Below are positions 1,253-34,900 of a stretch of 64,000 bases of DNA, piece after piece. The position numbers and the translations under genes were made by a program. Source of the DNA: Onchidella celtica (lineage: Eukaryota > Mollusca > Gastropoda > Systellommatophora > Onchidiidae); the NCBI GenBank assembly GCA_963931925.1, contig OZ007575.1:40657846-40721845 (forward strand), given 5' to 3'. Positions within the stretch are counted from its first letter, which is position 1. Each line of letters begins with the position of its first letter. The notes under the pieces were generated by a model. That model made no database searches. It saw only the letters and a list, made by a program, of their open reading frames with translations, and had not been told where the DNA came from.

Positions 1253-1377
1253 CTTGACTTCTTCTTGCGCTTTCCTCCTTCATCATCGTGTTTTTCTCTG
1301 GGTCTCTTGGGCTGTTCAACGTAAGTACCTTTCAGTTTTGCTATCACTTCTGAGTCTTTCTTTGCAAACTGAATTCT
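1253..1377 (-). CDS. SNRPA: SNRPA coding exon 3
   Basis: Encodes [20 protein letters not shown], the end of RRM1, then a basic linker. Acceptor TTTTACAG|AG. I place the end at AAG|GTGAAA; reading through it meets an in-frame TGA at 1251-1249, which would give a protein of about 120 aa with a single RRM. The donor reading is preferred because all U1A/SNF proteins known to me have two RRMs. Confidence 0.82.
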
Positions 1378-3514: not shown

Positions 3515-4233
3515 GGTGATGGAGATCCAGATTCAGCACCTGCTGAATAAATGCACAAATACTGAAATAGTCAAGAGTGAAATACAGATGATTATAAGAC
3601 ATAACGACAAATGCTTAACTTTCACTTCAGTGTGAACACAATATAACAATCATTCAAAAATTAATTTACAATCAATTTAACATTAAGAGAGTAAGGACAA
3701 TACACATACAATTCTGACACAGTCAAATCAATGATACAGTGATACTGATAGGATGACTGCAATATATGGGATGTCTTTGTAATTCGAAAATATATAGGAA
3801 CGAGTTCGCTCTCAAGGGAACCTAATTTGCAAATATCAATGAATTTTATTACTGTATTGGTGACTAGATCCAACCTGTTTCGGCATAATTTTAGACTGTT
3901 ATAAAAAGTGTTTCACTGTCCCAAACTTTTAACCCTCGCCCCATGCTGAGTATCTTATCCACGTAACACCTCGTTTGGGGATAGCCAGTGGCTAGTCAGC
4001 TGATTGCTCACATGTTGTTGCTAACCTCAGCGGTCAGGTCATTTTGAACATGTTTCGTATTTACTTTAGCACGCAATAACAAAAATATGCGGGATAAATC
4101 ATAAATGACCCCTACGATATTTGGATGGGGCACTTCTGATGAGACACAATAACTTTTATTGTAAATAGAAGGCTCAAAATAAAGAATGTTAGAGTGCAGA
4201 ACTGCATAAATTTATATTGTAGCAAGACCAGAC

Positions 4234-5423
4234 TGTCACGAGTGGAGTGAGTGCAATTAAGGGGATTGCTACAGAGCGGGTGTAGAGTAAGAAGGACTCA
4301 CAGTAGACAGCAAGTTAAGCGTGCTGTTGTGAGTAGTGGGAGGGGGTCTGAATGGGGCGAAAGCGCTGTATAACTATCACTGCAAGTTAGAAGGTCCGAT
4401 GGAGCGGACCTGTGAATAAGAGCCCAGCGGGCGGACATAAGTGAAAGCAGTCGGGAGACGGATGAGTGTTGTTCCAGTAATGACTGGTATGTAGAACGTT
4501 GATTGATTATTATGATTGATGTATTATATTATATTCGTCTATTACCATGATGTGAATAAGTATATGTGAGGAATGTGGAGGTCCTTGATATTGGATAGAG
4601 CAATGTGCGCCACGAGCGATAGATGAAAGTGAGTTCATGGATTTGTAGCGCGAGTGAGTAGTGTGTACTCCGATGGAGGTGTGTTACCGTAAGATGTGTG
4701 GTGAGTGAAAGGTGAACTAGTGTGTGTACGTTTCATGGGTTGTAAGGAGAGGTGGAGTGAATAGAAATGGTAGGGTATTATACCATTGTAATGTTATTCT
4801 TGTAGGTGTCGGGGACGGGCCGCAGAGCCACCTCGATGAGCACAGGGGATAGGCCAGCATAGGGCCGGAGGCCACACATAGGCCAGAAGTGAGGCTGTCA
4901 GTGTAGGACAGTGGAGGCACATAAAGTCGTGGCAGTCAGGCCACGGACAGGGACGTAGATATGAGAGTGACTGAGATACTATATTGTTGCCATGTTGATA
5001 GGCTAGTGAACTGATACTATGTTGTTGCCATGTTGATGGCTATGGAAATAATAATGTGTTATTGCCCTGCTGAGGTGCTAGGGGAGTGCTAAGGTGTATG
5101 ACAATAGGAAGGTGATATTGAGAGACTGCGGTGCCAGTGAATCATTAATGTACTATTAAGACCCTGAGGGGAGAGGCTGAGGCCGAAGTGCCTTTAGGAG
5201 TAACTACCGGATTGTGGATCCGAGGGAGAGTGTGTGTGAGAATAAGGCCGTTGTACGGCAGTTCGTTTCAATAATATAATGTATGTAATTGCGCTATTAT
5301 ATGTATAATTATGTTTAATAAATGTGTGAGTCTGATGGGTTGTTTTGTTAAGTGTTAACTTGTTTGTTCGTGATTGTCGTCCTGTCATAAACTATTACAT
5401 CTCCCAGTCTGGGATTTGTGACA
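4234..5423. mobile_element. Solo LTR of an LTR retrotransposon, 1,190 bp
   Basis: Begins TGTCAC and ends GTGACA, perfect terminal inverted hexamers of the TG...CA type. It is flanked on both sides by the 5-bp direct repeat CAGAC (4229-4233 and 5424-5428), a target-site duplication. A plus-strand AATAAA lies at 5317-5322, so the LTR probably reads on the plus strand. It contains an imperfect tandem repeat (GATACTAT.TTGTTGCCATG, about 4974-5040). No gag/pol sequence is adjacent, so recombination between two LTRs presumably removed the body. A 5-bp duplication fits BEL/Pao, Gypsy or Copia; the family is not resolved. It stands about 0.7 kb upstream of the SNRPA start codon. Confidence 0.85.
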
Positions 5424-5428
5424 CAGAC

Positions 5429-6091
5429 CATTTTTACAATGCCTCTGAACCTCTTGGATTTTGCTCCCATGTTAAAGAGTTTAATATTTCAAGAATTTTG
5501 GTATTTGAATGACCAAAATCGGATGAAAAATAAAAAAGTTATGAAATTTTGAACATTGGAAATTTAACATTTTTGTAGGTAATTATTTACAAAGGAATAT
5601 AAACGTTTAAACGGCACTGAATTTTAGGCAATTAACAGTGTTTCGTTGATAAAACTATTATTTAGTTACCAAATTTCATGAGACTTCCCATACTTATGTT
5701 TTAAGACATGCCGAGTGCGTCTGCGATGATCATTTTCTGAACGGGAGACAACTAAGGGAGATAATTAAGGGAATTAGGCTAGGACGACTCGGCACAAGCA
5801 GATTAAAACTGTTATTTTGTTAATAAATCCATTCTGCTTCATCCAAATGTGATGAAACTTTTCATAATTATGTTTAGGAATACAACGAACACATTCACAC
5901 AGCTTGTGCTTCTGTAAAAATCAAGGGGAGATAACTTATCAATAAGTATTTTTCCAGCAAAAAAAAAGTTAAAAAAAATAATAAAGTGACACAACGCTTG
6001 ACTTCTCTCATCATAAAGTGTATTTCAAAGAAAATAGTCCTAACTTCCAATGAATAAAATTGCACTGTTTTAAAAAAATCTTGATGAAAAG
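5429..6091. other. AT-rich intergenic stretch
   Basis: No coding similarity or recognisable element on either strand. Confidence 0.4.
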
Positions 6092-9846: not shown

Positions 9847-9849
9847 ATG
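9847..9849 (+). other. Candidate initiator ATG exon end for VPS26 (alternative at 14369-14371)
   Basis: VPS26 proteins start M-SFFGFGQ-like, and the first exon found here begins exactly at the Ser codon in phase 0, so the missing exon should end ATG|GT. Two places upstream fit: ACAAAATG|GTAGGC here, with A at -3 and G at +4, and GTGTATG|GTAACA at 14369. Sequence alone does not decide between them. Confidence 0.22.
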
Positions 9850-11525: not shown

Positions 11526-12316
11526 TTAACGATCACCCTGCGAGCTACCCGTAAAGCCTGCTGTCCGGTCAGTGACTTTACTCACGGAGAATCTTATCTG
11601 GGGTCACTGACCCGAGCCGCTATATGGTGACCACATACACTGTCCACGTGGTTCGGTTTTTATTGATCATTATGAAAACATTCACTGCTATGCCTTATCA
11701 CGCTTGATAATGAATTTACCAGCAATACCTTAGTCTGTCAGTCTCTAATCAATGATCTGACTTGTGATTCCAAACTGGCAGCTGTAGTTTTCATGAGAAC
11801 GAAGCATAATAACTAGCCACGCCCTCCCAAGCCTTACACAAATGGTTTCATCCTGATTGACACATGTATTAATAATAAACCAATGTGGGCATTTGGGGCA
11901 AAGATTATTTCAGAGCTTGTTTCTGATTGGTTCTTAGATACAGACAACTCCAGATGGTGGTCAGCTTGTGAGAAAATGAGATAATATTGCAAATTTGTTG
12001 AGCAACAGTTCGCATGTCGATGTTACATCTTTTGAAAGTGTGGGGAGAGCCTTTGAAAGCTTAGTATAGTCTTTGTGATTCCGACCAGTGGGTCACTGGT
12101 TAACTTGTCCATACCACAATGCCTTTGATTTAGAAGAGATGTTCAGTGAACAATAAGACGGTGGTTATGTCTCAAAAAGGTCGGGGACCCGATGCGTGAA
12201 AATACGGCTTGCGCGTGGCGCGGTCAGCTTGACCTTGCCGACTTTTGCCGCCCATGCGGTGTGAGTGCTTGGGAGTCAATACCGACATTTGTCGCCCTGC
12301 GCAGGGTGAGGGTTAA
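11526..12316 (-). mobile_element. TTAA-flanked MITE (piggyBac-type), copy 1
   Basis: About 790 bp bounded by TTAA on both sides, with imperfect terminal inverted repeats (TTAA-C-(G/C)-ATCACCCTGCG... and ...CGCAGGGTGAGGG-TTAA). It aligns along its length, in inverse orientation, with copy 3 at 31156-31942: for example CACTGGTTAAC near one third and GGCGTGGCTAGT in the middle. No transposase frame, so non-autonomous. Confidence 0.78.
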
Positions 12317-12959
12317 CAAAACATGGATTGGTCACAAAAACACCGGTAAATGAAATTGTATGGAAAAACAAAATACAAATATTGACCGCATCGACATGCT
12401 GGCTGCACATAGTGCATTGACAGTATCTGTAGGGAGTAAAAGTAGGAAGTAATTATTATTGTTGTTGGACCTTGTTGTGTGATAGTGATTATATCTGCAC
12501 AATTTTGGTAAGAAAACATTACTGCAACTTAAGAGAATTGATAAGGTAAGCAAATCAGTGGAGGTGTGTATGATTATGAAGATGGGGCTTCACAACAAAG
12601 CTAATTGGTCTTTGCGGAATTTGACAATTTCTGCTTTGCACTGTACTACTTCACAGCGCTGGGCAAAAAGGGACTGCAAATTAAATGGAAGAAATTCATT
12701 GTCAATAATAAAAGACTCGAGCTGAGACTAAATTGTTACATTAAGATAAAGGGATGTTACTCATATAACTGGAGAGTATTTAATGTGTGATCCTCCTTCT
12801 ATGAGTCACGAATTACAGCTTGCCATGAGCCTGTCAATTTCATGAGCGCATGGCATGTTACAGGTCTTGGCCCGTTGAATCCACAGGCCGGGGCAGTGAA
12901 TGGGCGAAGCATCGAAATACAGCATCAACTTTCCAGGCGTTCATTCTGCATGGGCGTAT

Positions 12960-13696
12960 CAATATGGCAAAGTCAAGCTGCCTGCGCTGTGCGCAAGCCG
13001 TATTTTCACTCATCAGGTCTCTGTCCTCTTTGAGACACAACTACCGTCTTATAAGTCACTGTATCTCTTCTAAATCAAAGGCATTGTGACAAGGACATGT
13101 TAACCAGTGAACCACTGGTCAGAAGCACAAAGATTAAGCTTTCAAACTAAGCTTCTCACACTATCAAAAGGTGTAACATCGACATGTGAACTGTTGCTCA
13201 ACAAATTTGCAGTATTAACTATTATCTCATTTTCTCACAAGCTGACCATCATCTAGAGTAGTCTGTATCTAAGAACAAATCAGAATCAAGCTCAGAATGA
13301 TCTTTGCTCCAAATGCCGACATTAGTTCATTAGTATACAGTGTCAATTTGGATGAAACCATTTGTTTAGGGCTTGGGGGGGGGGGGGGCGTGGCTAGTTG
13401 TCATGCTTCGTTCTCACGAAAATTACAGCTGTCAGTTTGGTATCATAAGTCAGATCATTGGTTAGAGACTTCTATTTAAGAGACAAAGGTTTTGCTGGTT
13501 AATTCATTAATTATCAAGCGTGACGAGGCCTAGCAGCGAACGTTTTCAGACTGATCAAATAAAAACCAAACACGTGGACAGCGCTAGTGTGGTCATCACA
13601 TACGGCAAGGGTCAGTGCGACCCAGATAGAGTCCCCTTGAGTAAGGTCACTGACCGGACAGCGGGCTTTATAGGTAGCGCGCTGGGTGGGGTTTAA
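12960..13696 (+). mobile_element. TTAA-flanked MITE (piggyBac-type), copy 2, left end degraded
   Basis: Same orientation as the 31156 copy. Homology is clear from about 12968 (GTCAAGCTG.CTGCGC) to the right terminus GCGCGCTGGGTGGGG-TTTAA at 13696. The left terminus is too diverged to place. A poly-G tract (about 13375-13388) has expanded where the other copies have only GGGAGGGCG, and part of the element is recast around it. Confidence 0.7.
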
Positions 13697-15540
13697 TAAG
13701 ATATATACTCGTGACTTAATGTAATAGTTCAAGGGTATGTGGTGGAGAGCATTTTTTGGGAGGAATATCAAGGTATACAACTTTAGTCTTCCACCTATTT
13801 CATGTTGTGTGCGTTAATTGCCAAGCCCCGCATCCACCAAGAGGACTAACTTGCCGGGGGGGGGGGGGCGCCCCTGCTACCCCCTGCACACAAGACACTC
13901 CTAAACATTAAAGTCACGTCCCTGTAATATCGCTCTTAACTCAAATGGAATCCTCCCGCATTTTTGGATCCCAAACATTTTATTCCTCCCTCAAGACAAG
14001 CCTCAACATATATTTATTCTTTTGTCATAAGATTTCAGTACATTCTCTATAGAGCCATCTTCATCCTGCTCCTTGTCTTGTTTTCAAATGATGGGCCAGT
14101 GCATTTTCATTGTAGTTCCTGTTCTGTTTTTGTTACACTCTCCCATCATAAATCTTTCACCGCTGCTCTTTCTCTGACAGAGTTCAGTATTATGGAAAAC
14201 AATTACAAATTGAAAATGAATGTCAGTTAACGAAGCTGGTCTGAAATCAGACGGCAGCAGACAAGACTTTTGGCTCATCGCGGGTGACCTTTCGTGTAAC
14301 ATGTATGACATCGGAGAGACAACACGATGTACTAGCGACTGCGGACAGCCTATTTCATGGCATCGTGTATGGTAACAGTAACAAGATCAGCAGGACGGTG
14401 GTTCTGTACTATCCATCCACACTCATGTCTCTCTACTCTTGAGTGTTAGTCCACATTCACCCGCATATCCATTCTCCGTGTGTCCTTAGGCTGAGCAATC
14501 GCCCGTCCTCATTATCAGTCAAAAACACACAGCGACAGAGGACGTATTGAGTCTTTTTTGTTTACGCACTTTCTTGACTTGTCCTCTTCGATAGTGATTT
14601 GGGCTACTTCTCTTGAAACTGGCATTTTTCAAGCCTCCTATTGGTAAACCGAAACTCTTTCTAAACTGAAGAAGAAAAAAACGTGGTCCCGCCGATTTCG
14701 GTTTAACCGTTTTTTGCTGTACTATCATGAATCATAACAATGAGAACATCTAGCATTACATTCAGTTAGGCAGTTGTGGTAACCGATAACTTTAGAAGTT
14801 GGAACAGATGCATGATGGGGGTAGCAGAAAAGAAGAGCACATAATTCTTTAAAACCACATGCTCTGAGAAGGAAAAATTTCAATTCAAGACATGATATTG
14901 ATATCATTCATGTGCGCGGTGCATTTTGGATCAGAAGCAACATATGGCTACTGCGTCTTGTGGCTTGTTTGTTTTTTTAGGTAGATCCAGTTGATTCGTT
15001 TCAAAGTATACAGTAATGTGGGCCATTGGATGATACCAACGTGCCACAGGTGCACATTCCAAAATAGTCTTAGAAACGAAAGCTTTGTCAGTCACATGCA
15101 TTTCCTCCGCTGGAAAACAAAAAAGAAAAACAGTCTGTATCTCTGTGGCTTCAATATGAATAGTATTATCCTTCAATAATGTCACCCAAAAAAACTGCCA
15201 TTTAAGACTCTTATTTACCTAACAACCATGCTGGACCTCAGTTGTATTTACTTCTACCAGACTATCACATAAAGTTGCTATGGTGCTGAGCATTAAATAA
15301 ATTGTTTTCATGCTAAACCAATCCTTCATGTCTCTATTTTTTTTTTTTTAGCAATTTGTAAAATTAGGTTGAGAGATGTAGTTTGGCTCTTACTCTTACA
15401 GAATGTAAAGAATTTGAACAGGAAGGAACATACTTTGACTTTGCCAGTAGAATGAAATGTAATGTCCTTTACTCAGTTGACAAATACAAAGCGATATATT
15501 GGAAAATATCAACTTTTACTTATTAATTTTTATTTTTCAG
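13697..15540. other. Presumed VPS26 intron or upstream sequence
   Basis: No coding exon recognised. It contains a poly-G tract at about 13856-13868 and a moderately CpG-rich part (14230-14700) with the alternative ATG|GTAACA candidate at 14369. Confidence 0.4.
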
Positions 15541-15684
15541 AGCTTTTTTGGCTTTGGGCAGAGTGCGGAGGTAGACATTGTCTTAGACGGACAAGAAAAT
15601 CGCAGAACAGCAGAGATCAAAACAGAAGATGGTAAAAGAGAGAAATACTTCCTCTATTTTGATGGTGAAACAGTTTCTGGAAAG
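15541..15684 (+). CDS. VPS26: VPS26 exon 2
   Basis: Residues 2-49 (SFFGFGQSAEVDIVLDGQEN to DGETVSGK). Acceptor TTTTTATTTTTCAG|AGC, donor AAG|GTATGC, phase 0 at both ends. The frame has no ATG next to the acceptor, so the Met must come from an upstream exon. Confidence 0.95.
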
Positions 15685-18600
15685 GTATGCGGCCCAAAAT
15701 TTGAAAGGAAGAATAACAGATTTTAGCTGATGTTATGTGGCAGTGTTGTCTAATACTAATATCCCTGTAATGATTTATTGAGAAAATGATTCAAGTTTAG
15801 TTTAATAAATGTGGTTTGCAATTTTGAAAATTGTGAGTATGATTTTGTAACATAACAAATGTGACATGGTGAATACATGAAGGGGGCTTGTTCCCCTGTC
15901 CCTAGCAGTTGGGGCACTGGTTTGTCTAATTATTCCCAAGATTTGCTTTGATATGTGTTGCCAATGGAACTCAAAGAATAATTAGGCCCCTATTAATGTT
16001 ACAAAGCCTTTGGACTTGGTTATGTTCTATTCAGTGGACTTCCAAGGAAAAATATAAATGTATTTCCTGCTCTTTCAGTTGTGTTAACAGAAACAGTAGT
16101 GCTTCTAGTCAGTTATTATCTTATTATTCAGCATGTTACAGTTTTAATAACGTTTTTAGAAATATCTGGCCAGAAATACTGTCACCCCAGTCAGAAAACA
16201 TTCCTCACCTCAGTTACTGAGTTAGGGAGTGCAATAACCATTGTCAGTCATTCTGCTGCCGAAACCCATCATCATCATTGCCTTTCTCACCCTGGATCAG
16301 GGTATAGGCCACCAACAAACACTTTCCATCCCTCTCTATCATGGGCCAGTCTCTTTACATTATTCCAAGTCTTTCCGCTTTGTTGCACATCATTTTCTCT
16401 GGCTCTTCTCCACGTTCCGCGCGGCCTTCCTCTTGATCTCTTGCCCTGGGGATTCCAATCCAATACCTTCTTCGTGATGCTGTTTCCTGGCCTCCTGAGA
16501 GTGTGGCCGATCCATCTCCATCGCCTCCTACCAATTTCCTCTCTGACTGGGCTCTGTCTTGTTCTTTTCCATACAATTTCATTGCTGACCTTGTCTGTCC
16601 ATCTGATCTTAAGTAGCTTCCTCAAACATCTGTTGATGAAAACTTGGATTCTCTTTATGCAGGCCTGGGATGCATTCCAAGTCTCACATCCATACAACAG
16701 GACTGACTTCACATTCGAGTTGAATATCCTCAGCTTGCCGAAACCCACCTGCCTTTAAATTCAATTGCAATACTGTCTGCAACTTGGATTGAATGCTAAA
16801 GATATAAATAGCAGCAGTTTGGGCATCATATTTCTTTTTTCAGTTCTGAGTTCTTGTAAACATTGCGGGGCTGTGCAACATACAACCTTTTCTTTTTCCC
16901 CAATTTTGACTTTGCTTATAGCCCTGCTGCGACCCCACAGTTTTTCTGTGGTTTTTATGCTATTTTGTAAATTAATATGACATGCCAGTAAATATGTCTA
17001 CAAAAATTCAGTCATTTTCTTAGATTGCTTTCTGGTTTTAAAAATATCATTTCATATAAAAAATTTATTTTCAACTCTTGCGTTATTAATACCATTTCTT
17101 CACACTGTAGTACAGTTTCATATGTTTCTCCACTTATGTACTTTGAAGCATACATTATGGTTTATAGCATACATTATGGGCCATGTAATAATATCAGTGG
17201 AATGTTAAGTAGATGAAAGGTTTACTTTATTTTACTTTACTTTACTTTACTTTCTCAAGATATGCAACAAGAGGATAAAGAAATCTGCAGTTGAAATAAT
17301 GCTGAAAAATATTTATATCTGACGGTGACAATAAGAATTTGAAAACTGTACCCACATTTTCATTTCGCTGTTTATATAAAAATGTAAAGTTACATTACAA
17401 AATCTGTGGAAGATTTTTCCTGATGAGTTTTTGAAAGAGTGGATTATATATGGCTACAGTGTTAATTTGGATATTCATTTTGTTTTCCAAAACGCTGACG
17501 TTGCAAAAGTGTCCACACATAATTTTGTCATTCCTTTCCTTTCTGTGGGTTACTAGTAACTAGTTAGGGTCATGGTTTAATTTCTACTCTTATTTTGTAC
17601 CAACCGTTGGTTAGAAATTATTTGTTACTGTTACTGCAATGTTTGTTTTTCAGGTGAATATAACTTTGAAGAAAAGTGGAAGCAAATTAGAACATCAGGG
17701 AATCAAAATAGAGTTCATAGGCCAAATAGGTGAGTTTTTCCCATTTTTAATTGACATTTACTGACACTAGAGGGGTAAATGTAGCAGTTGTTGAGTTTTG
17801 AAGGAGAGATTTTTTTTTAAAATGCCAGAGATAAAAATTGTAGCCTGAATGTTTGTCAGCAGATGTTAAAAAATTATGTGGAGATGTTGCAGTTGTATTT
17901 TTTGTTTTGTTTTTAGATTTGTAGAACAATATTGACTTACTTATTGTGTCAGCCCTATTTGGGAGGTTGTTTTAATTAACAGAAGATAGACTGGTGAATG
18001 ACACACTGGACAGACAAAGTTCACTGGATAAGTGGTTCAGATTTGCAGAGAATTGAATTATTATGTACAATTTCTTTCTTTATTAAAGTATGCAAGGGGC
18101 GTCCCTGCACCACGTGTCTTCAAGTTGCTGTGCGGGTTCTTTGTTTCAACCACTTTTGGGCATTTGATCTTGTAGTAAATCCTTTGTAAATATTGACAGC
18201 GTTTTGTGACATTGTGTGGAAGTATAGTGTAATGTGAGAAGGCTGATTCTAATTCTATTACTTTTGTTGACCAGATCAATTTGCAGAGGAAGCAAAGGAG
18301 GGTAGATGAAATTTTTCTTGGATTGGTTACAATTGGTCTTGTGTATGTTTCTCACAGAATTGTACTATGACAGAGGCAACCATCATGAATTCACATCACT
18401 GGTCAAAGAGCTTGCAAGACCAGGAGAGCTCACCCAGAATGTCAGTTACAATTTTGAGTTTTCACAAGTGGAAAAACCCTATGAATCTTATACAGGAGCA
18501 AATGTTAGGTTACGGTAAGATGATTAGTACATACTATTGGGCTGTTTAGACAAGGTGGTCTAGAGGCAAGATGCTCGCCTCTCATGCCAAAGGTACCGAG

Positions 18601-21600
18601 TTCAAAACCCGGCCGGTGCAGGGATGTTGGAATTTTGGGATTTTTCTCATATTTTCGTGTCCCTGATCCTTTTGGGGGGGGGGGGGGGTGTAGGATCAAG
18701 TACCTAGTCTTCTCGGATAAGGACGACAAAATTGGGAGGACCCGTGTGCACATCGCGCACGTTAAAGATACCTTGGCAGTTGGAAATCAAAAAGAGCAGG
18801 CCAAAGAGGCCGCTGCCCAGGCAAAATCAATAAAAATTCATCCCTCCCACACACACCTTTAAAAAAAAAACCGCCAACCGGCGCGACACTGACGATGCGC
18901 CTGCACCAGTTGTAACTGGGTGCAATGGCACAAAGGCAAATTTCCCAAATGGGATTAAAGTAGTATACAAATACAAATATTGTGAAATTTTTATTTTATA
19001 ATGTGAATTAACAGTATGACATTTATTATCGTCATATTAGCATATGAAGTTTATCCTGTCAGTTTCTTCCAAATACACTGTATGTTGTTGTAGTGAAGTC
19101 TGTATTACTTGCCTTATGCTGGATGGAGAAGTGAAAGAATGAGAACTTGGACACGTAACCAATAGCAGATTGTGGAGTTTTCATAAATAATAAATTGCAT
19201 TTTGAATTTTTTTGCTTGTGTTTGATATTGTGCATTTTCTTTATACCAATACTGATTACCTTGTATTTCATCTCATTAGGTACTTTTTGCGTGTGACAAT
19301 TGTCAAACGCATCTCTGACACCGTGAAAGAGTTAGATATCGTTGTCCACACATTGTCACAGTATCCAGAGATGAATTCAAGCATCAAGATGGAAGTTGGA
19401 ATTGAAGACTGTCTACATATTGAATTTGAGTACAACAAATCCAAGTGAGTGTAGTGTGTATAATGTCAGAATATAATTGTCAACAGAATAAATGAAGTCA
19501 TTCTCAGTTTAAATTGGTGTCACACAAGGATAGTATTATATATAATAACAATTGTAAAATGATGATGAATTATGATTTGCTGTCTGCGCAGTGACATCAG
19601 TAGAAACCAGGATTGAAGATGAGTATAGAATTCAAATGATTTGTTATAGTGTATTGGTTAAATTTCCAATCTTTTTCATTTGAGCCTACAGAAAAGTGAA
19701 ATTTTTAACTTCTCAATAACATAATTTCTATCAGATAGTTTACCCATGTTCACATACAATCGTATTTTGTCATCATAACACTGCTGCTGTTCAAGATACC
19801 ACTTGAAAGATGTGATAGTTGGTAAGATCTATTTTCTCCTGGTGAGAATCAAAATTCGATATATGGAGCTTGCGATAGTGCGGAGAGAAACCACAGGGGC
19901 AGGTAACCAAGAATGCTTACATATGACAGAGAATATATTTTTATGGAATGTAATCATTCATTGTATAGATGTGCTATTAATAGGTGTCTTTCAATATTAG
20001 TTCCATAGCTTTTCTTGTTCACAGTTTATAGTCTATTTATGTGATGTGTAGCTTTTTCATGTCCTGTTTTTTCATAAGAAAGGATCTCCCTGTTAGAGGA
20101 AAGCAGTAGCTTTTTACTTCTAAAATAGTGGATTATGTGCCTTCAGTCCGTATATTAGTGAGAATAACATATCTGGACATGTTGGAACACTAAGCATGAG
20201 TAGAAATTCCTTATTCAGGTTTATCATTATCTGTTTCTGCATAGATTTGTGATTCTCATTCAGACAATTAGAACAATGCGAAGAATACAAATTTGTTGAC
20301 ATTGCTATCTCAGATATTATCTGTGATGGAGCTTAATTTGATGCTGTTGGTTGCAACAAGCCTATCATAAAATTCATTGATAGGTTGTCACCTAATTTAT
20401 ATTTTCACATGAAAGAAAGATTGTAACTAATTTCATTCTTATGCGAGATGTGTATTAATTTATTCTTGAGATTTTCAGAGTCGATCTCATTTGATGCACA
20501 ACCATTTGGCATCGTGTTGTATACACCTTTGTTGTATACACCTTCATTCATTTGGTCAGACTTAAATAATTATTAACAGACACTTCTTTAAAAATTTGAC
20601 TCTTTGATGGCCAGATTGCCTGACATTGGTGAAAGTGTGCAACAGATAACATGAATCAGTATTTTGCACAGGCAGAGTAGTCTAAATTAAACATACATTG
20701 GGACAAAAGACTGATTATAAGTTCACAAAGTGTGAGTGTAATAATTAAGAAAACGAGGCAAACATGATCTCAGTCGTTTTTCCATTATGGTAGATAATAT
20801 ACCCAACAATTTACTGTGATTCATCCATGTATGTAGCACTAATGTGATAAATATAAAAAACATCAATGCACTGCTATTTCAAACAAGTCATTAGAAGGGT
20901 GAAGCTTCTGCTCCATGATCATCAGTTTGTGACCTACAGTACACAGATTAGAAACAAATTATGAAGAGTAAATGAAAGTAGAGAGATTTCCTCACAACCT
21001 TACCAAGCATGATTTCTAAAATTGTTTGAATTCATCTGTGTTTCTGGAGTACGGTACCATTATCACATTTATTTTTATTGCCTTGGGTTATATATAAAAA
21101 CAATGCTTTTTTATTATTGCTGTTCCAAGTATGCCTGTTTCACTTCTGATTTCCGTGAAAACATGCACACAAGCAATAGCTGGCAAATAGAATTATACAA
21201 GTTTGGAAAGTTGAGAAGTTTGGAAATTTCTGAAACACCGATGTACAATCACATTTTGCATTTCCTCTTTTAGAACATGCCATAATCTTCATGTGACTGG
21301 AAGTGTTTAGATCTTTCCCATATGAATTTTGTATATATATGTATTATTTGCAGCATTAATGCATTGGTCAAAGAGAAATTGATCTAACATTCTTATTTGG
21401 CAGCAGTTACTTTCTTCTTCTGTCACTGATGATATCAAAAATGAAAAAAGAGTTTTCATACCAAAATTCTGGGTGAGTTGTTACGGGCATTAAACTGATA
21501 GTTGTTATGTGACGCAGGACAAAGGGTTCCAATGAGGTAATTTGTGAATATTCTCATTGCTCCATAAAATCTTCACTTGTTTGTTTTACTGTCAGTTCAG

Positions 21601-24600
21601 CTTATTTATACTCTAAACATTTGAATTCAAACAGTGCATTCCACATACCACTGAAGCTTTCTTTGCGCCCCTTTTTGGTATAGTTTGATATGATCAGTGA
21701 TAGATTTTAGTATTTAAATGTTGAGATTTGTGTTAGTTGGTACTGTTATGAGCTTTTCCTTTTCTTTCTTTTGTCATTTTCCGTTGGCCCACAGACCTAT
21801 GTTACTTCTGTTTTGGTTTCCAGATATCATTTAAAAGATGTGATAGTGGGTAAAATTTACTTCTTGCTGGTGAGAATCAAAATCAAGCACATGGAACTCC
21901 AGGTGATCAAACGAGAGACCACAGGCACAGGTACTTTTGCACTAACAGGTACAAAGGCAATGACATGTACATACACACACATGCAGACAGAACTGGTATG
22001 GAGACTATTATTTCCTCTGGATTTGGGGCTATGAACAGCTATTTGGTTTGTTGCTTTCAGTTTTTACTGCATAAAGATTTTACTTTTTCCTGTATTTGTG
22101 CCATAGAGAACCCCTCTTTCTTTTTTTAAGCTGTTGGACTTTATTAGGCATTATGATGATTTATCTTGGGTTTTGCAGCTTTTCCATGTTACTGAATGGA
22201 AGAATATATATATAAACAATTCTAGAATCTATAAGAACAACTGATTTTTTTCACGTCTCTGACTGAAGACTTCAGAACGTTCAGAATGCAAATGAGAGTG
22301 AAGTGCACATTGAATTTAGGCTTTCCACTTTGTAATCTTAATTGTTATCTTTGAAAGTAAAGTGGCTTTATCAGTTACGCCTCATGTCTCACAGGACTAT
22401 ATAGACGACAGCGACATGGTAAATAATTTCATTGTTTCATCATTGTTCAGATTTGAAGTTGTTCATTTGATTTGAACTCTTATACAAAAGAGTTGAGTAG
22501 TTAAAATACAGAAGTGAAGTTATTAAAATTAATGAGTTAAAAAGTCAGTAACTTGCACAATGCAGACTTTATAGTTGTCAAAGAGAACATGAATCAGATC
22601 AGCTGAACTAGAATTAATGAATTTAATGTACGACTATACTAATCTGCTTATAATAACAGTTTTTGATAGGTAAACAGAAATCCACAGACAGCAACATGGG
22701 GATCTTGTATTGTATTTCCAAGACCCATTGTGATTGTTTGTAGAGCTTATTAAACAGTGACTAATGGTGCAAAAAAAAAGAGGGAAAAAAGGGAACATGA
22801 TACATTCATATCCTGCATTAAAATTGTATCTTGGTGCGTTGTTGTACCCTTTTCCTTGATTGCAAACCTATTGTATTTCTTTTTATTTCTTTTTTTCTTT
22901 TTGTTTTATTTTGGTGATGCAGTCATTTGTTTGATTCACTGCATGATTTGAGTGTCTTTTTTCATCTATTTTTCTCTCACACCTGTTACTGTTTGATGTA
23001 TCAGATGACATCTGATTATATTTTTGTTCAATTAATGTTGTGCTATCAGTGTCTATGACACACATCAGCTGTGGTTTTAGAACAGGTATGGTTAATGTGA
23101 AACTGGATATTTGCAGCACATTTCTGGTAACCGTTGGAACTTTGGGGGTGATTCTGTTATGATAGGTTAATTTCATTTCGTGTCATATTATCTCACCCTG
23201 GATTCCTTAAAGAAATTTGAATGCAGAATATTTTCTGTCAGAGGGAAGGCTCAATAATAGATCTAATTGCAAATATGCCCACAGCCTGTTAAGGTCAGAC
23301 TAGACAAATCTGTTGAGGTTATTATTTCTATGGTGTTCAGATCATTGAAACAGTTTCATCATGTTTTGTTACCATCAGTATTGATCTCTCTTTAAAACCA
23401 GAGTTGTCTCCTTGCATCATGATTAATAAAATAGTAATTAAGTAAAAGTTGTTTCGAAGTGTTCTTTGAAACATCCAGAATTCTTGTTAAACATTAAAAC
23501 ATTAAGGCTGTTTCTATTCCTTTTGCGTTTGCTAGTTGGGAATAATGTTAATGAGAAGCATGCATGCAGGGAATCAGATCCAACGCCATTTTTTTTTAAT
23601 GACTTTCCAGCTTGCTTTTTTTTAAACTGGGGTGTAAGTTGGACTTGATAATATATATTTATGCAAATGCAGTAATATGGTGCACTCATTGCTGTTACTT
23701 TACTTCAGTATTCTTTTAAAATTGCCTGACTGTATCAAGAAGTTTAACTTTAATCAGAGCCATTTATAAAACATTTAATATCTGCAGGACCAAACACATT
23801 CAACGAGAATGAAACAATTGCCAAGTATGAAATCATGGATGGTGCGCCAGTCAGAGGTAAGTGTGATGAGTACGTCTAGGAACTGAAATGTTGAATTGGC
23901 ATGATGACAGGGTGATCTATGTCAACCGCTAATTGAAAGTGCTGATTTAATAATAATACTCATTTTTCAAGACACTTAACAGACTTGACACCTGAGAGGG
24001 TGCCTTCTGGTTGTCTTGGAAGTCACAGCATGTTTGAGATTATTTGCAGAAAAAGAATAAGGTGAACCAAAATTTATTGGCGACGTCTGCGCGGACATTT
24101 CAACAGTTCTAGTGTTTCTGCCAGTAGACAAAAACTTCTTCAGTGCACCAAACTAAATCTAATTTTTCAAGAAGCCACCAGTATTCTCAGTGTCGTATAA
24201 ATGCATTAGAATATCATTCAACAAAATAATTCCTATCCCCTTGCAAAACTGTCAGGGTAAGCTCACATCATCCTTGAAGAGGGATTAGTAGTTCATGTCG
24301 TAGAGATCGTTCAGTCTTGAAATAATACTCTTTGTCTGTGATTTTGGTTGTTAGACGTATGAGATTGACAAATTATATCCTAATCAACTTTGTAGTAGGA
24401 ACATGGGACAGCTTTTTGCAAAAATTCATTAGTTTCTTAGATATAAAAACGTATATTTACTTTAGCATATCTATGCTTATTTTTATGCTGTGGGGCAATT
24501 AAATTCTCATTGTCAATGAAGAATTTAGGCACTTCGATATTGAAGAATGCTATCTGTCGCACGCAGGAGAGTCGATACCTATACGATTGTTCTTGAGTGG

Positions 24601-25701
24601 CTATGAGCTCACCCCAACCATGAGAGACATCAACAAAAAGTTCTCTGTTCGGTACTACCTGAACTTGGTGTTGGTGGATGAAGAGGAGAGACGATACTTT
24701 AAACAGCAGGTCAGTCATACATTCACACAAGGTCATTCACGGTGTATTTGGGTACACATTCTTTATTTATGTTTCTTATTCAATTCAGAGTTTTTAAGTT
24801 TAACAGAATTAAGTGCATTCATATAATTTTATCAAAAATTGTTTTGTACACAAGTATAAAGGTTATTAAATCAAGTTGGAGATCTTAGCCTCTCTCAGAA
24901 AGGACAGGATGCGTTGCAGGTCCACATCAGAAAATAATTCTTTCGTGGATCCGCAGGCATAGTACCTTCTTCGGATATGCATGAAATTTACAAATTCACT
25001 TAAAATATGTTTTATTGATAGTTGCCAATTGCATGTCACACATTCGGGGGGATGTCCCCCCCCCCCCCCCCCCCCCCCCTCAGTAAAAAACTGTAAGGTT
25101 GGTATGACCCAGACAGAGTCTACTAAGGACAATTTCATCTCTCTGATTTTGTTGAGAGGCATGAGTCCTCTGGGTTGTATGCAATCCCACATTAGCCCAA
25201 CCTGTTCAGGACCTGATCATTTTGGTCTTGGAGTCATTCTTTATGATTTAGATGATGACAAGGCTAATAGAGTTTCAGCGTCATCCTGTTTCAGTTATTA
25301 CCATTAAATTTTGATCAAATTTCCCAGTTGTTGAGTTGCTAATAGGTAGCGTTTAACATTGATGAAATATTTGAACTTCAGTATGAATTTTATAAATCCT
25401 TTTTATTTCATGATTGGAATGAAAATTTAACTGTAGGCCTACTGTTTATAACTTGCAGGAAATCACCATCTTCAGAAGAGCAGACAAGATCCGGAAGAAC
25501 TACCAGGCTGCCCTGTCTCACCACAACCCGTCATTACTTTCAGACTGTAGTGGGACCAGTAAGTACAATACCCAGCAGCAGCAGCAACAACAGCAGAAGG
25601 AGAAAGAGGAGGAGGATGGTGACAAGGAAGAAGAAGAAGAAGAAGAAGAGGAGGAGGAGGCGGCGGAAGAGGATAATGAGAAAGTGGATGGGGAAAAATG
25701 A
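15541..25701 (+). CDS. VPS26: VPS26, retromer subunit (first, ATG-bearing exon not located)
   Basis: VPS26 is the arrestin-like subunit of the retromer (with VPS35 and VPS29), which recycles membrane cargo from endosomes to the Golgi and cell surface. Exons: 15541-15684, 17654-17729, 18358-18514, 19280-19444, one of 19796-19902 or 21824-21930, 23788-23856, 24567-24709, 25459-25701; all phases agree. With one initiator Met this gives 368 aa, against roughly 330 in vertebrates. Hallmarks: [115 protein letters not shown]. The YELTPTMRDINKKFS wording resembles vertebrate VPS26B more than VPS26A. Unusual: the duplicated sixth exon and a long Gln/Glu-rich C-terminus. Introns hold a SINE (sense) and two antisense LINE fragments. 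Confidence 0.95.
16260..16750 (-). mobile_element. Non-LTR retrotransposon 3' fragment (reverse transcriptase C-terminus, RTE/CR1-like)
   Basis: One intact minus-strand frame (16748-16287) reads NSNVKSVLLYGCETW, then INRCLRKLLKIRWTDKVSN, RRRWRWIGHTLRR and GKRSRGRPRGTWRR. This is the standard C-terminal block of molluscan endonuclease/reverse-transcriptase elements. The 3' end runs into an ATGATGATG tail. The 5' part is missing (5'-truncated insertion). Lies in VPS26 intron 2, antisense to the gene. Confidence 0.85.
17221..17255. repeat. TTTAC microsatellite
   Basis: About six imperfect TTTAC/TTTAT units in VPS26 intron 2. Confidence 0.8.
17654..17729 (+). CDS. VPS26: VPS26 exon 3
   Basis: Residues 50-75 (VNITLKKSGSKLEHQGIKIE, then FIGQI). 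Acceptor TTTTTCAG|GTG, donor ATAG|GTGAGT, leaving phase 1. Confidence 0.95.
18358..18514 (+). CDS. VPS26: VPS26 exon 4
   Basis: Residues 75-127 (ELYYDRGNHHEFTSLVKELA ... [15 protein letters not shown]). Acceptor TTTCTCACAG|AA, donor ACG|GTAAGA, leaving phase 2. Confidence 0.95.
18549..18985 (+). mobile_element. tRNA-like SINE, copy 1 (full length)
   Basis: Head resembles a tRNA gene with pol III promoter boxes: box A-like GTGGTCTAGAGGC and box B-like GAGTTCAAAACCC. Body includes AGTACCTAGTCTTCTCGGAT and GTGCACATCGCGCACGTTAA; tail includes CAAATTTCCCAAATGGGATT and ends AT-rich. A poly-G tract at about 18675-18689 breaks the ATTGG..TAGGATC stretch. In VPS26 intron 4, 35 bp after the exon 4 donor, in the sense orientation. 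Confidence 0.8.
19280..19444 (+). CDS. VPS26: VPS26 exon 5
   Basis: Residues 127-182 (YFLRVTIVKRISDTVKELDI ... [14 protein letters not shown]). Acceptor CTCATTAG|G, donor CCAA|GTGAGT, leaving phase 2. It can join either copy of the next exon in frame. Confidence 0.95.
19796..19902 (+). CDS. VPS26: VPS26 exon 6a, alternative (mutually exclusive) exon
   Basis: Encodes [20 protein letters not shown] followed by RYMELAIVRRETTGAG: residues 182-218 in an alternative version. It is 107 nt long, the same as exon 6b, with the same entry and exit phases (2 to 1), an acceptor (CTGCTGTTCAAG|AT) and a donor (GGCAG|GTAACC). It is intact and differs from 6b at about 31 of 107 bases; the ten differences in the first 62 bases are all synonymous, which points to selection on the protein. 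Using both copies would shift the frame, so they should be spliced one at a time. The AIV.RRETTG part resembles the usual invertebrate form (AI.KRETTG). Confidence 0.85.
20000..21823. other. VPS26 intron between the two exon 6 copies
   Basis: AT-rich, with no recognised element apart from a small duplication (GTTGTATACACCTT twice, near 20520). It may hold signals controlling the exon choice, but none can be named by eye. Confidence 0.45.
21824..21930 (+). CDS. VPS26: VPS26 exon 6b
   Basis: Encodes the same first 20 residues as 6a, then KHMELQVIKRETTGTG. Strong acceptor (TGTTTTGGTTTCCAG|AT) and donor (CACAG|GTACTT). The HMELQ.IK wording is close to vertebrate VPS26A here, although the rest of the protein is VPS26B-like. 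The stronger splice sites suggest this is the default copy. Confidence 0.93.
23788..23856 (+). CDS. VPS26: VPS26 exon 7
   Basis: Residues 218-241 ([20 protein letters not shown], then VR). Acceptor TATCTGCAG|GA, donor AGAG|GTAAGT, phase 1 to 1. Confidence 0.95.
24567..24709 (+). CDS. VPS26: VPS26 exon 8
   Basis: Residues 241-288 (ESIPIRLFLSGYELTPTMRD ... DEEERRYFKQQ). Acceptor GCACGCAG|GA, donor CAG|GTCAGT, leaving phase 0. This part of the family carries the loop that contacts VPS35. Confidence 0.95.
24866..25310 (-). mobile_element. Non-LTR retrotransposon fragment (RNase H-like C-terminus) split by a poly-C/G tract
   Basis: Minus-strand frame reads GLMPLNKIREMKLSLVDSVW, then PPECVTCNWQLSIKHILSEF, VNFMHIRRRYY and LQRILSFLREAKI. 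This is the CxxC...KHIL signature common at the ends of LINE RNase H domains, with a stop close after. A 24-base C tract (25056-25079) lies inside it and codes for a Gly run. In VPS26 intron 8, antisense to the gene. Confidence 0.8.
25459..25701 (+). CDS. VPS26: VPS26 exon 9, terminal, with Gln/Glu-rich tail
   Basis: Residues 289-368 and the TGA stop. It starts EITIFRRADKIRKNYQAAL, the family's last conserved helix, and then leaves the alignment: a run of eight Gln (CAG/CAA), an acidic Lys/Glu stretch and eleven consecutive Glu (GAA/GAG), ending EKVDGEK. Acceptor AACTTGCAG|GAA. The tail makes the protein about 35 residues longer than vertebrate forms and is built from triplet repeats, so its length may vary between individuals. 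Confidence 0.93.
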   Translation, partial: EITIFRRADKIRKNYQAALSHHNPSLLSDCSGTSKYNTQQQQQQQQKEKEEEDGDKEEEEEEEEEEEAAEEDNEKVDGEK

Positions 25702-31155: not shown

Positions 31156-31942
31156 TTAACCCTCACCCTGCGCGGGGCGCCGGCAATAGTCGGTATTGGC
31201 TTGCAAGCGCTCACGCCGCACAGGCGGCAAAAGTCGCCCACGTCAAGCTGACTGCGCCACGCGCAAGGCCTATTTTCAGGCGTCGGGTCACTGACCTTTT
31301 TGAGACGTAACCACCGTCTTATTGTTCACTGTATCTCTTCTAAATCAAACGCATTGTGACATGGACATGTTAACCAGTGAACCACTGGTCGGAATCACAA
31401 AGACTAAGCTTTCAAAGGCTCTCCCTACACTTTCAAAAGATGTAACATCGACATGCGAACTGTTGCTCAACAAATTTGCAATATTATCTCATTTTCTCAC
31501 AAGCTGACCACCATCTGGAGTTGTCTGTATCTAAGAACCAATCAGAAACAAGGTCTGAAATAATCTTTGCCCCAAATGCCCACATTGGTTTATTAGTATG
31601 TGTCAATCAGGATGAAACCATTTGTGTAGGGCTTGGGAGGGCGTGGCTAGTTACCGTGCTTCGTTCTCACGAAAACTACAGCTGTCAGTTTGGAATCATA
31701 AGTCAGATCATTGGTTGGGTTAGAGACTGACAGACTAAGGTTTTGCTGGTTAATTCATTATCAAGCCTGATAAGGCATAGCAGCGAATGTTTTCATACCG
31801 ATCAATAAAAACAGAACCACGTAGACAGCGTATGTGGTCATCGTCTAGCGGCACGGGTCAGTGACCCCAGATAAGATTCTCTGTGAGTAAGGTCACTGAC
31901 GGGGCAGCAGGCTTTACGGGTAGCGCGCGGGGTATGGGTTAA
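31156..31942 (+). mobile_element. TTAA-flanked MITE (piggyBac-type), copy 3, best preserved
   Basis: 787 bp from TTAA-CCCTCACCCTGCGCGG to CGCGCGGGGTATGGG-TTAA. The ends are imperfect inverted repeats starting CCC, as in piggyBac-type elements, and TTAA is the expected duplicated target. The inside has mirrored GTCACTGACC motifs near each end and no open frame. It matches 11526-12316 (inverted) and 12960-13696 (direct). Confidence 0.8.
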
Positions 31943-34900
31943 TGTATAGTCAAAAATCTTGAATCTTTGTCTTGACCTACAGGGAATATTGCACTGTGCT
32001 TTTTCAACTTGTGTTTCTGAGATAAGAGTCAGGTGTGGACAAAACATTATGGTAGTTTAGGGAGTGTAGATTGAATCTGACTTAACTGAAACATAATTTT
32101 GAGAAGGTTGGCTGGTAATGCGAAAGATGCAAGAACAGCTGTGAATATAGAGGTATGTCAGTTTTAACAACCAAATGATATTTGAGAATAACACTAAGAT
32201 TTCCCAACACTGTTTCTTGTAACAACAGGAACTCACATACGAAATGAAACAAAACATGAAATTAAAACCAAATGTATATATATACCCATTTTTAATATGC
32301 ACTACCCCCCATTTCATCAATTTTGGTGATAAAAACAAAATGTATGTATGTCGATAACAATTTCAGTGAATTATGAAGCATGGACAGATCATGCAAAACT
32401 TGAGTGCCAAAACAAAAACAAACGAAAAAATATTTTTAAAAAGCCTAACAGTAACATTAACATTAAAGTAAACACATGTATGTATTACATATATAACCAA
32501 AATAAATTTCTTTTCTCTCACTGGATAAAAATACAAGTTTCCTCTCATTACACTGACATGGTGAAAAAAATCGGCAAGAAGAAACCGAACTGTGTGCACC
32601 TGAGAGAAGAGACTTTGTGGAACATTGCATGAAATCGTTTGAATGCACAGATGCCTTCGTCAAAATATTATAATGTGTGTCCCAATCTTCTCAAGTAATT
32701 GACCCTAATTTTGTCTCTCTTCCATTTTCTGTTTTCATGAGTGTTTAAAACATTTGAGAAGCAAAGTTGGTAACCTGATGTTTCATGAATGTCAACAGCC
32801 TAAGTACTGACTGTGTAGTTGAGGTAAGGATTACATCTTCAGCTTCCTGAATTTTGCTGAAAACTCCTCTTAAGTACATGTACTAGGAAGCTTGTAAGTT
32901 TTAATTAATAAAGGCATTGTTCATCAAAGTAATTTACAATATTAATGGCGCATCAACTTAGGCACTGCAGGACATAATAGAAATTTTTTTGGTAGGTCAC
33001 TAAAAGGAGAATACTTGCATACAATTATGATAACCCCCTGATAAGTGCATGATTTTAACTGAATACAAATAACATTCAGATATAAATATTGGAAAACATT
33101 TTAATACAGGAATACTAGCCAAGGCATATATAGATGACAACTGTAGCACATGTACATCTATTTGCCCCTTCGTCATGAAACCGACGAAGTTGAGTCAGGG
33201 AAAAAAAATACATATAATCTGAATTTTTCTTTCCTTGTAACAACTCTGTAAAACCTGTACTTGCACCAGTCTAGTGTCTCCTCACTGCCTGGTCTAGTCT
33301 TTTCATTTCAAAATTTTGATATAAATTTCAGTCTGATCTCTGATGGACTGAATGTTACACAATTTTGTAGTTTGCAAATCATTTATAAATGTTTTTATGA
33401 GAAAAATATGATACCAAGCATCCATAAGCGCACTTTCTAAATTAAAGTTTCTTTCATGATATTTTGCGTACTTATTTCAGCCACATTTTTGCTGCCTGTA
33501 AATTTGGAATGTATGCACACAACTTGTGCTGAAATGTGAACATTTGTAATAGAGTTAGTGTCCCTAGAAATTTACAATGATCCACTTTGGCTGTCTAAAT
33601 GCCTTTGTAATGAACTCATTTGGGAAACATACTGAAAATTTGTCAAACCAACCCAGCAAAAGTAAAATCAGTTGAAATTTGAAATTTCCTCAAATGCTGA
33701 GTTATATTATATTCGATAATATTGCTGTCCACAGTTATCTGCAGGTCTAGTTCACAAAATAGTTTTTAAGTGTCAAGGTGATTTGAAAAAGAAAAAAAAA
33801 GACAGGCCTCGAAAGATCTGGGATAACTTTGTAGACCATGTGTCACTTCATCCCCTTAGAATGTCATGATTTTAACTCCCTTCCTTTGACTTTTGAGAGA
33901 TTGATGATTGAAGTTTGATGTTCTTACAGCTTTTGGGGATACAACCTTTTTTCTGTTTTACTAATGCATGTACTTACAAATGACACACCGAATCCGTTTG
34001 ATACTTTGACATACAATTGAAAAATCTTGTAGAAGTAGTGTGTAGTATGTAACTCAATTCAGCCAAAGAATGCAGACAGAACCTTGACAATTTAAGGGGG
34101 TAAGTTGTTCGGCCTCCCCCAGAAACATTACACATAAAAGTTGTATTACACCAGCATTTAGTCACACACAGGCCTGCTGGTGGCACAATGAGAGGATATG
34201 ACACCAACAAAAAATGTGGTCTTGGAGTCTTCTGTGTCAAGCAGGAATGATTTTCCTGGGTTTTTCCCTCAGCCAGCATCACCACCACCCAATGTGCTTG
34301 GAAAGTAAATTTATATCAATCTTAACACTTAAACAGCAATGCACTATCAGTCTTTGCTTAAATATACCATGAGAAGAGACTTTGTGTTTCATGTTTCCAG
34401 GTCTTTGCGGTCATGATGACCCTACCATATAATGGACATAAAATAATGGTCCCTCTGATATTGCTTTCTTTGGGGACTTTAAAAAATACAGCCTCACATT
34501 TTGTAGATCTGACCAATAACCATAAAATATAACCAACAAAATCAGTAGCGCTCGTGAACATACTCAGAATCTTATAAATTTGAGGTTAAATTTTAATTCT
34601 TGTATTTGCACAAAGAATGTAACAAGTTAGTCTTCATTGATTTATTAACATGCTGAATAATACTTACGAGTTCATCAGCTGATTGCAATTTGTGCATGTA
34701 TACTGATGTGTCACATCACTTCACACAGGAGTGTAAATAACACCTAATCTTTCTGCTGGGAAAAACAGTCCCATCTCTGACACTTTCTAAGATCCCATAT
34801 GCATACATTTCACAGGACTGAACATGTCCGTGACAATTCTGTAATAATCATAGTCCAGTTTCCACCAATTCCATCTACTTTGTCAGTCTCAATCATTTCA

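Follow-up and report, generated by a model that had tools for sequence, protein, structure and literature searches.

Mutually exclusive tandem exons are a well-known kind of gene arrangement, and several described systems lie close to the one considered here, a duplicated sixth exon in the VPS26 gene of the gastropod Onchidella celtica. The gene lies in a 64,000-nucleotide stretch of contig OZ007575.1 (positions 40,657,846 to 40,721,845, forward strand; assembly GCA_963931925.1), the whole of which we refer to as the window. In human U2AF1, exons Ab and 3 (U2AF35a/U2AF35b) are likewise duplicated neighbours in a general-purpose gene, the swap between them consists of seven residue variants, as it does here, and inclusion or exclusion of both exons is described as leading to stops and nonsense-mediated decay (PMC5224494). 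The splicing choice and its factors were measured in that work, whereas the VPS26 pair is known from its anatomy alone and concerns a different gene and protein. A second close system is coq-2, whose a and e exons form a frame-locked homologous pair in a conserved gene, as the VPS26 copies do, and are reported to be mutually exclusive in helminths, annelids and molluscs (PMC7434440). According to the same paper the coq-2 switch changes Phe204 to Leu and Ala243 to Ser, remodels the enzyme core and switches substrate, compared with which the VPS26 swap is milder.

More generally, a survey of human genes describes 236 tandem duplicated exon substitutions in 214 genes as homologous, mostly conservative swaps of one region that are mostly old and presumed to serve fine-tuning (PMC9741552). 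The VPS26 pair is like this class, from which it differs in being molluscan and known from its sequence only; the string 'vps26' is absent from the main text of the survey. Within retromer, alternative splicing of another core subunit, VPS29, gives human isoforms A, B and C and is described as altering partner binding (PMC12260524), through N-terminal additions rather than the exon swap found in VPS26. Vertebrates have two forms of the VPS26 subunit itself, VPS26A and VPS26B, which like the two copies studied here vary over the final 15 residues that this exon encodes, but which are encoded by two genes, differ along the whole protein and do not match the two copies in their residues. We used PDB chains 5f0m and 2r51 for VPS26A and VPS26B, and take these to be human and mouse. 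Among the matches listed for wider queries of the open-access literature we found no report of VPS26 with mutually exclusive exons, which is consistent with an earlier note on this stretch, made from its letters, that knew of no description. The occurrence in VPS26 is apparently new to that literature, and both isoforms may already figure in automatically annotated mollusc genomes.

Two copies of the sixth VPS26 exon

We assembled the VPS26 gene from the window sequence by anchor-based exon joining and found its sixth exon present as two copies, 6a (YHLKDVIVGKIYFLLVRIKIRYMELAIVRRETTGA; 19796..19902, + strand) and 6b (YHLKDVIVGKIYFLLVRIKIKHMELQVIKRETTGT; 21824..21930, + strand). Each is 107 nucleotides long, enters in phase 2 and leaves in phase 1, and has its own AG acceptor and GT donor (AAG and GTAACC for 6a; CAG, with a pyrimidine-rich tract, and GTACTT for 6b). 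The copies are adjacent homologous exons that share their neighbours. Exon 5 (19280..19444, + strand), whose donor is common to both isoforms, joins in frame to either copy, and each copy joins in frame to exon 7 (23788..23856, + strand), whose acceptor is likewise common; both neighbours were placed by the gene model and by alignment with VPS26 chains. With 6a alone or 6b alone the coding sequence is 1107 nucleotides long, is open and encodes a VPS26 of 368 residues, while inclusion of both copies (1214 nucleotides) or of neither (1000 nucleotides) shifts the frame and meets stops soon after. Much of what the earlier note had proposed is borne out by this rebuilt model: the coordinates, lengths, phases and splice dinucleotides of the pair and the four junctions around it; a spacing of 1.9 kilobases, the intervening intron (19903..21823, + strand) being 1921 nucleotides; a choice forced by the frame; and two intact coding copies giving two isoforms of one gene.

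We consider it highly likely that 6a and 6b arose by an old tandem duplication within a mollusc VPS26A/B-type gene and are used in a mutually exclusive manner; going by its two open isoforms, the gene very probably makes two slightly different VPS26 proteins. The frame lock, taken together with decay of the kind described for U2AF1, would make the two copies exclude one another. Transcripts with both copies or with neither would be removed through nonsense-mediated decay, so that the cell would effectively choose one.

Divergence and selection between the copies

Between 6a and 6b, 31 of the 107 bases and 7 of the 35 residues differ, with no difference among the first 20 residues. All 11 base differences in this first block are silent, as the earlier note had said, although its count of 10 in the first 62 bases falls short, one leucine codon (CTC/TTG) being changed twice; the last 15 codons hold 20 base changes and the 7 residue changes. 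By the Nei-Gojobori method the proportion of silent sites that differ (pS) is 0.84, which is past saturation and leaves dS undefined, and the corresponding proportion for residue-changing sites (pN) is 0.14. When the 31 changes were placed neutrally, 7 or fewer residue changes arose in none of 20000 trials and a stop was gained in 58% of them. For the diverged last 15 codons only (20 changes, 7 residues) the corresponding figure was 0.4%, and even this stretch is under constraint.

We also ran a forward codon simulation matched to the base and residue counts, with 300 runs per cell at six times and six values of omega, the dN/dS ratio. Agreement was best at an omega of 0.05 when 2-3 changes were proposed per site (46% and 43% of runs fitted); the best fits elsewhere were 22% at 0.02, 25% at 0.1 and 8% at 0.2, and at 0.5 and 1 the fraction was 0.00 at all six times (rounded, hence at most 1 run in 300). 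The simulations call for an omega near 0.05. An omega of about 0.5 would be expected had one copy evolved freely through most of the period, yet this value gave 0.00 fits; selection has therefore probably acted on the protein sequence of each copy and kept both under constraint. Strong constraint of this kind, combined with saturated silent sites, argues that 6a, with its open frame under purifying selection, is an old functional coding exon and not debris. The saturation also makes it probable that the duplication is old, an age drawn from a single genome, which gives no date.

These data bear directly on the suggestion that the 6a duplicate is dead or not in use and has yet to decay. Its acceptor, with an A at -3 that none of the gene's other eight acceptors has, would suit such an exon, yet over saturated silent sites 6a shows no stop and no frameshift, its splice sites are intact and its first 20 residues are unchanged, and the simulation runs with a mostly free copy speak against it as well. 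We regard this explanation as most improbable. Alternatively, 6a may act mainly as a poison exon, joined to 6b transcripts so that the frame shifts and VPS26 is lowered by decay, in which case the protein encoded by 6a would matter little. Double inclusion does produce an early stop, and the products of human U2AF1 with both exons or neither are described as being lowered by nonsense-mediated decay (PMC5224494). The protein sequence of a poison exon need not persist, however, and 28 of the 35 residues have been kept while silent sites saturated, which leaves this role unlikely.

Nine exon queries were compared with the window and eight are reported, exon 9 being left out for its low complexity; self matches aside, the only significant match was that between 6a and 6b (7.7e-17), all others having an expectation value (E) of at least 0.24. 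The flanks of 6a and 6b are not significantly similar outside the exon, the next best match having E 0.041.

Gene identity and comparison with VPS26A and VPS26B

The solved structures closest to the VPS26 of the window are VPS26B (2r51, E 1.4e-163) and VPS26A. Scored without the low-complexity tail (325 residues), the 6a isoform reached 457.8 bits and the 6b isoform 459.0 bits against Pfam PF03643 (Vps26), both above the cut-off, and by these comparisons the gene is a VPS26A/B-type retromer subunit. A Pfam Vps26 search of the assembly (1.14 gigabases) gave 7 matches, all over the cut-off, of which 6 were exons of the window gene and one, on contig C15, was VPS26C from comparison with solved structures (E 5.8e-19). 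This exon of VPS26C, a retriever subunit, lies at L035 5250-5381 on the minus strand of that separate contig. A protein search of the assembly with the exon region found 4 places, three in the window gene and one on C17 that was not significant (E 0.22). With the best candidates alone being scored in these assembly-wide searches, neither showed a second VPS26A/B gene, and the Pfam search of the genome (10 candidates, all scored) showed no VPS26 retrocopy that could reveal spliced isoforms. In prokaryote and viral contig collections no encoded relatives were found, 81 and 4 pattern matches there failing confirmation. The assembly also gave 33 matches to the haemocyanin beta-sandwich family, a mark of molluscs, all of them on C7, in line with a molluscan source.

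At the seven positions that differ between the copies, 6b has the residue of VPS26A or VPS26B at six and 6a at one. Across the exon, 6b differs from VPS26B at 3 residues and from VPS26A at 5, compared with 7 and 9 for 6a. Since 6b is closer than 6a to both, on this comparison 6b is the canonical, conserved form, whereas 6a is derived. The first 20 residues of the exon are identical in 6a, 6b, VPS26A and VPS26B, and VPS26A and VPS26B themselves differ at none of these first 20 and at 7 of the last 15. The identical-then-variable pattern of the two copies is thus the constraint profile of the family.

The earlier note had further suggested that, through this pair, one gene may do what is divided between VPS26A and VPS26B in vertebrates. 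One VPS26A/B gene was indeed found, with two isoforms that differ where VPS26A and VPS26B also differ, but the residues of 6a and 6b are not sorted into A-like and B-like and show no A-versus-B split. Moreover, 4 of the 7 positions that vary between the copies also vary between VPS26A and VPS26B, close to the 3.3 or so expected by chance within a 15-residue block (calculated by hand), and the swap spans 7 of 368 residues. This part of the proposal is not supported by the residues, and such a counterpart seems very unlikely.

Exon 6 falls at about positions 175-216 of the 275 in the Pfam model, which by its place would put it within the C-terminal arrestin domain. The seven changes from 6b to 6a, among them H22Y, Q26A and T35A in exon numbering, are mostly conservative (BLOSUM62 values 2, 2, -1, 3, 3, 2 and 0), and made singly they shift the Pfam score by at most 1.1 bits, five downwards and two upwards (1.0 and 0.2). 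That the two isoforms score alike makes fine-tuning likelier than a new activity. Compared with 2r51 (VPS26B), PDB chain 3lh8 carries L-to-S and R-to-E changes inside the invariant block of the exon, presumably made for testing VPS35 binding, and both the L and the R are retained in 6a and in 6b. In the metazoan SNX3 coat, VPS26 is described as forming homodimers via the beta7 strands of its N subdomains and as contacting the membrane through loops 5, 6, 9 and 15 (PMC7990337). Going by domain, the swapped stretch would lie outside the dimer strand.

A coq-2 exon pair in the same genome

As a positive control we looked at coq-2 in the same assembly, where Pfam UbiA gave 12 matches (E up to 1). 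In the gene on C6, which is coq-2, self-comparison of translated frames revealed two homologous exons, 131 and 134 nucleotides long, both 2 modulo 3 and 3700 nucleotides apart, which by hand-derived coordinates lie at L033 1535-1665 (the derived, upstream copy) and 5366-5499 (the canonical, downstream copy). The upstream copy reads LTL and YSHQ where the downstream copy reads FTF and YAHQ. Matched by eye, this agrees with the published switch at residues 204 and 243, the second F of FTF and the A of YAHQ standing 39 residues apart in the 134-nucleotide copy as those two positions do. The genome of Onchidella celtica therefore carries exon pairs of the coq-2 type. The VPS26 and coq-2 pairs share the same anatomy, with the derived copy upstream in each; the coq-2 copies are one codon apart in length, whereas 6a and 6b are equal.

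The coq-2 locus also holds two stretches 6033 bases apart (both beginning in L032, one from about 3268 and the other from about 9301 and running on into L033) whose translated pieces are 93-100% identical, and a piece of this repeated sequence was seen by eye in the window near 4810 (about 4800-4850).

Splice sites, introns and points against an exclusive pair

Scored with a donor matrix drawn from general knowledge, the 6a donor reached 7.22 and the 6b donor 6.16, placing both among the three lowest of the gene's nine; the other seven scored 6.57 (exon 1), 8.30, 10.55, 8.90, 8.79, 11.90 and 8.55. Low-scoring donors are common in regulated exons. The 6b acceptor is a CAG preceded by the most pyrimidine-rich 60 nucleotides of the nine (0.74), and the acceptors give a faint hint that 6b may be the default form. 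Steric blocking is unlikely as the mechanism of exclusion, with the copies 1921 nucleotides apart. The motif TGCATG occurs in neither the intron before the copies nor that between them, twice in the intron after 6b and twice in intron 8, and is uninformative.

The donor and the intron behind it also bear on whether 6a could serve as an alternative terminal exon, read-through into the intron giving a truncated VPS26. The 6a donor lacks the G at +5, read-through would meet no stop for 32 codons, and ATTAAA occurs at 20686 and 21489. This same donor (CAG/GTAA) nevertheless scores above that of 6b, the phase of 6a fits exon 7 exactly, read-through from 6b is equally open (34 codons), and AATAAA is absent from the intron after 6a, so that we give a last-exon role hardly any credence.

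Several points weigh against 6a and 6b being a functional, mutually exclusive pair. Their exclusive use is deduced from the frame. The donor matrix was not fitted to Onchidella celtica, and with it the coq-2 donors score 6.16 upstream and 11.24 downstream; given so strong a donor on the canonical coq-2 copy, such pairs do not in general have a weak donor on each copy. The control is itself a single pair and hence a weak benchmark. Acceptor measures leave 6a unremarkable, its pyrimidine fraction being 0.64 near the site and 0.63 over 60 nucleotides, the third highest of the nine acceptors over that length and above those of exons 7, 8 and 9. Duplex folding of 120-nucleotide tiles from the introns at 19445-19795, 19903-21823 and 21931-23787 gave no pairing of the docking/selector type around the copies that stood out from shuffled sequence, the best duplexes lying within or above the shuffled minima: -48.3 kcal/mol for the first intron with the second (-44.8 to -55.2 in 10 shuffles), -54.9 kcal/mol for the first with the third (-46.9 to -55.7 in 10 shuffles) and -54.3 kcal/mol for the second with the third (-54.8 to -56.2 in 3 shuffles). 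Finally, seven mostly conservative changes could be almost neutral functionally.

Other features of the gene and the window

The remaining VPS26 exons all lie on the + strand. Exons 2 (15541..15684), 3 (17654..17729), 4 (18358..18514) and 8 (24567..24709) were placed by the gene model and alignment with VPS26 chains, and exon 9 (25459..25701) runs in the gene model to the stop codon and encodes a polyglutamine and acidic tail. Within this C-terminal tail (25570-25701), simple repeats encode eight consecutive Q and a long stretch rich in E. The coding part of exon 1 would be the ATG alone (9847..9849; donor GTAGGC), whose phase-0 junction with exon 2 yields MSFF; it is the least certain exon of the model.

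Intron 1 contains a foldback element (11526-13697) with arms at 11534-12272 and 12933-13688, pieces of which are 76-92% complementary, and a single-armed relative lies past the VPS26 stop at 31181-31943, with pieces 85-98% complementary to the left arm. In intron 4, 18540-18970 appears by eye to be a short interspersed element with box sequences like those of transfer RNA (tRNA) at its start; ARAGORN reported no tRNA genes in the window. Upstream of VPS26, at about 1260-3520 on the minus strand, candidate exons of a small RNA-binding (U1A/U2B''-like) protein were picked out by eye, and a UDP-sugar pyrophosphorylase exon lies at 50995-51309 on the minus strand (Pfam UDPGP, 38.1 bits).

Discussion

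If 6a and 6b are indeed used as a mutually exclusive pair, 6b is perhaps the default form and 6a perhaps a regulated one. Both isoforms retain the invariant first half of the exon, with the L and R that are changed in chain 3lh8, and so should bind VPS35 and join retromer. They would differ at seven positions late in the exon, within the C-terminal arrestin domain, most of these exchanges being conservative. Such a swap would tune cargo, adaptor or stability properties without conferring a new activity, and a modest shift in partner preference or stability is, we infer, its likeliest effect. More tentatively, molluscs may form two kinds of retromer that prefer different cargo or adaptors, one for example in neurons and the other in other tissues, through an old, regulated choice between two exons of their single VPS26 gene, having duplicated an exon where vertebrates duplicated the gene. 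We see this broader picture as possible, though rather doubtful.

The core subunits of retromer are regarded as near-invariant, and specificity is attributed to sorting nexins and other partners. If true, a seven-residue swap retained over a long time in the C-terminal arrestin domain of VPS26 would be a natural experiment indicating that this surface matters, with both versions present in one animal. The VPS26 pair, if true, would likewise extend the list of general-purpose genes with frame-locked duplicate exons to one that acts in membrane traffic.

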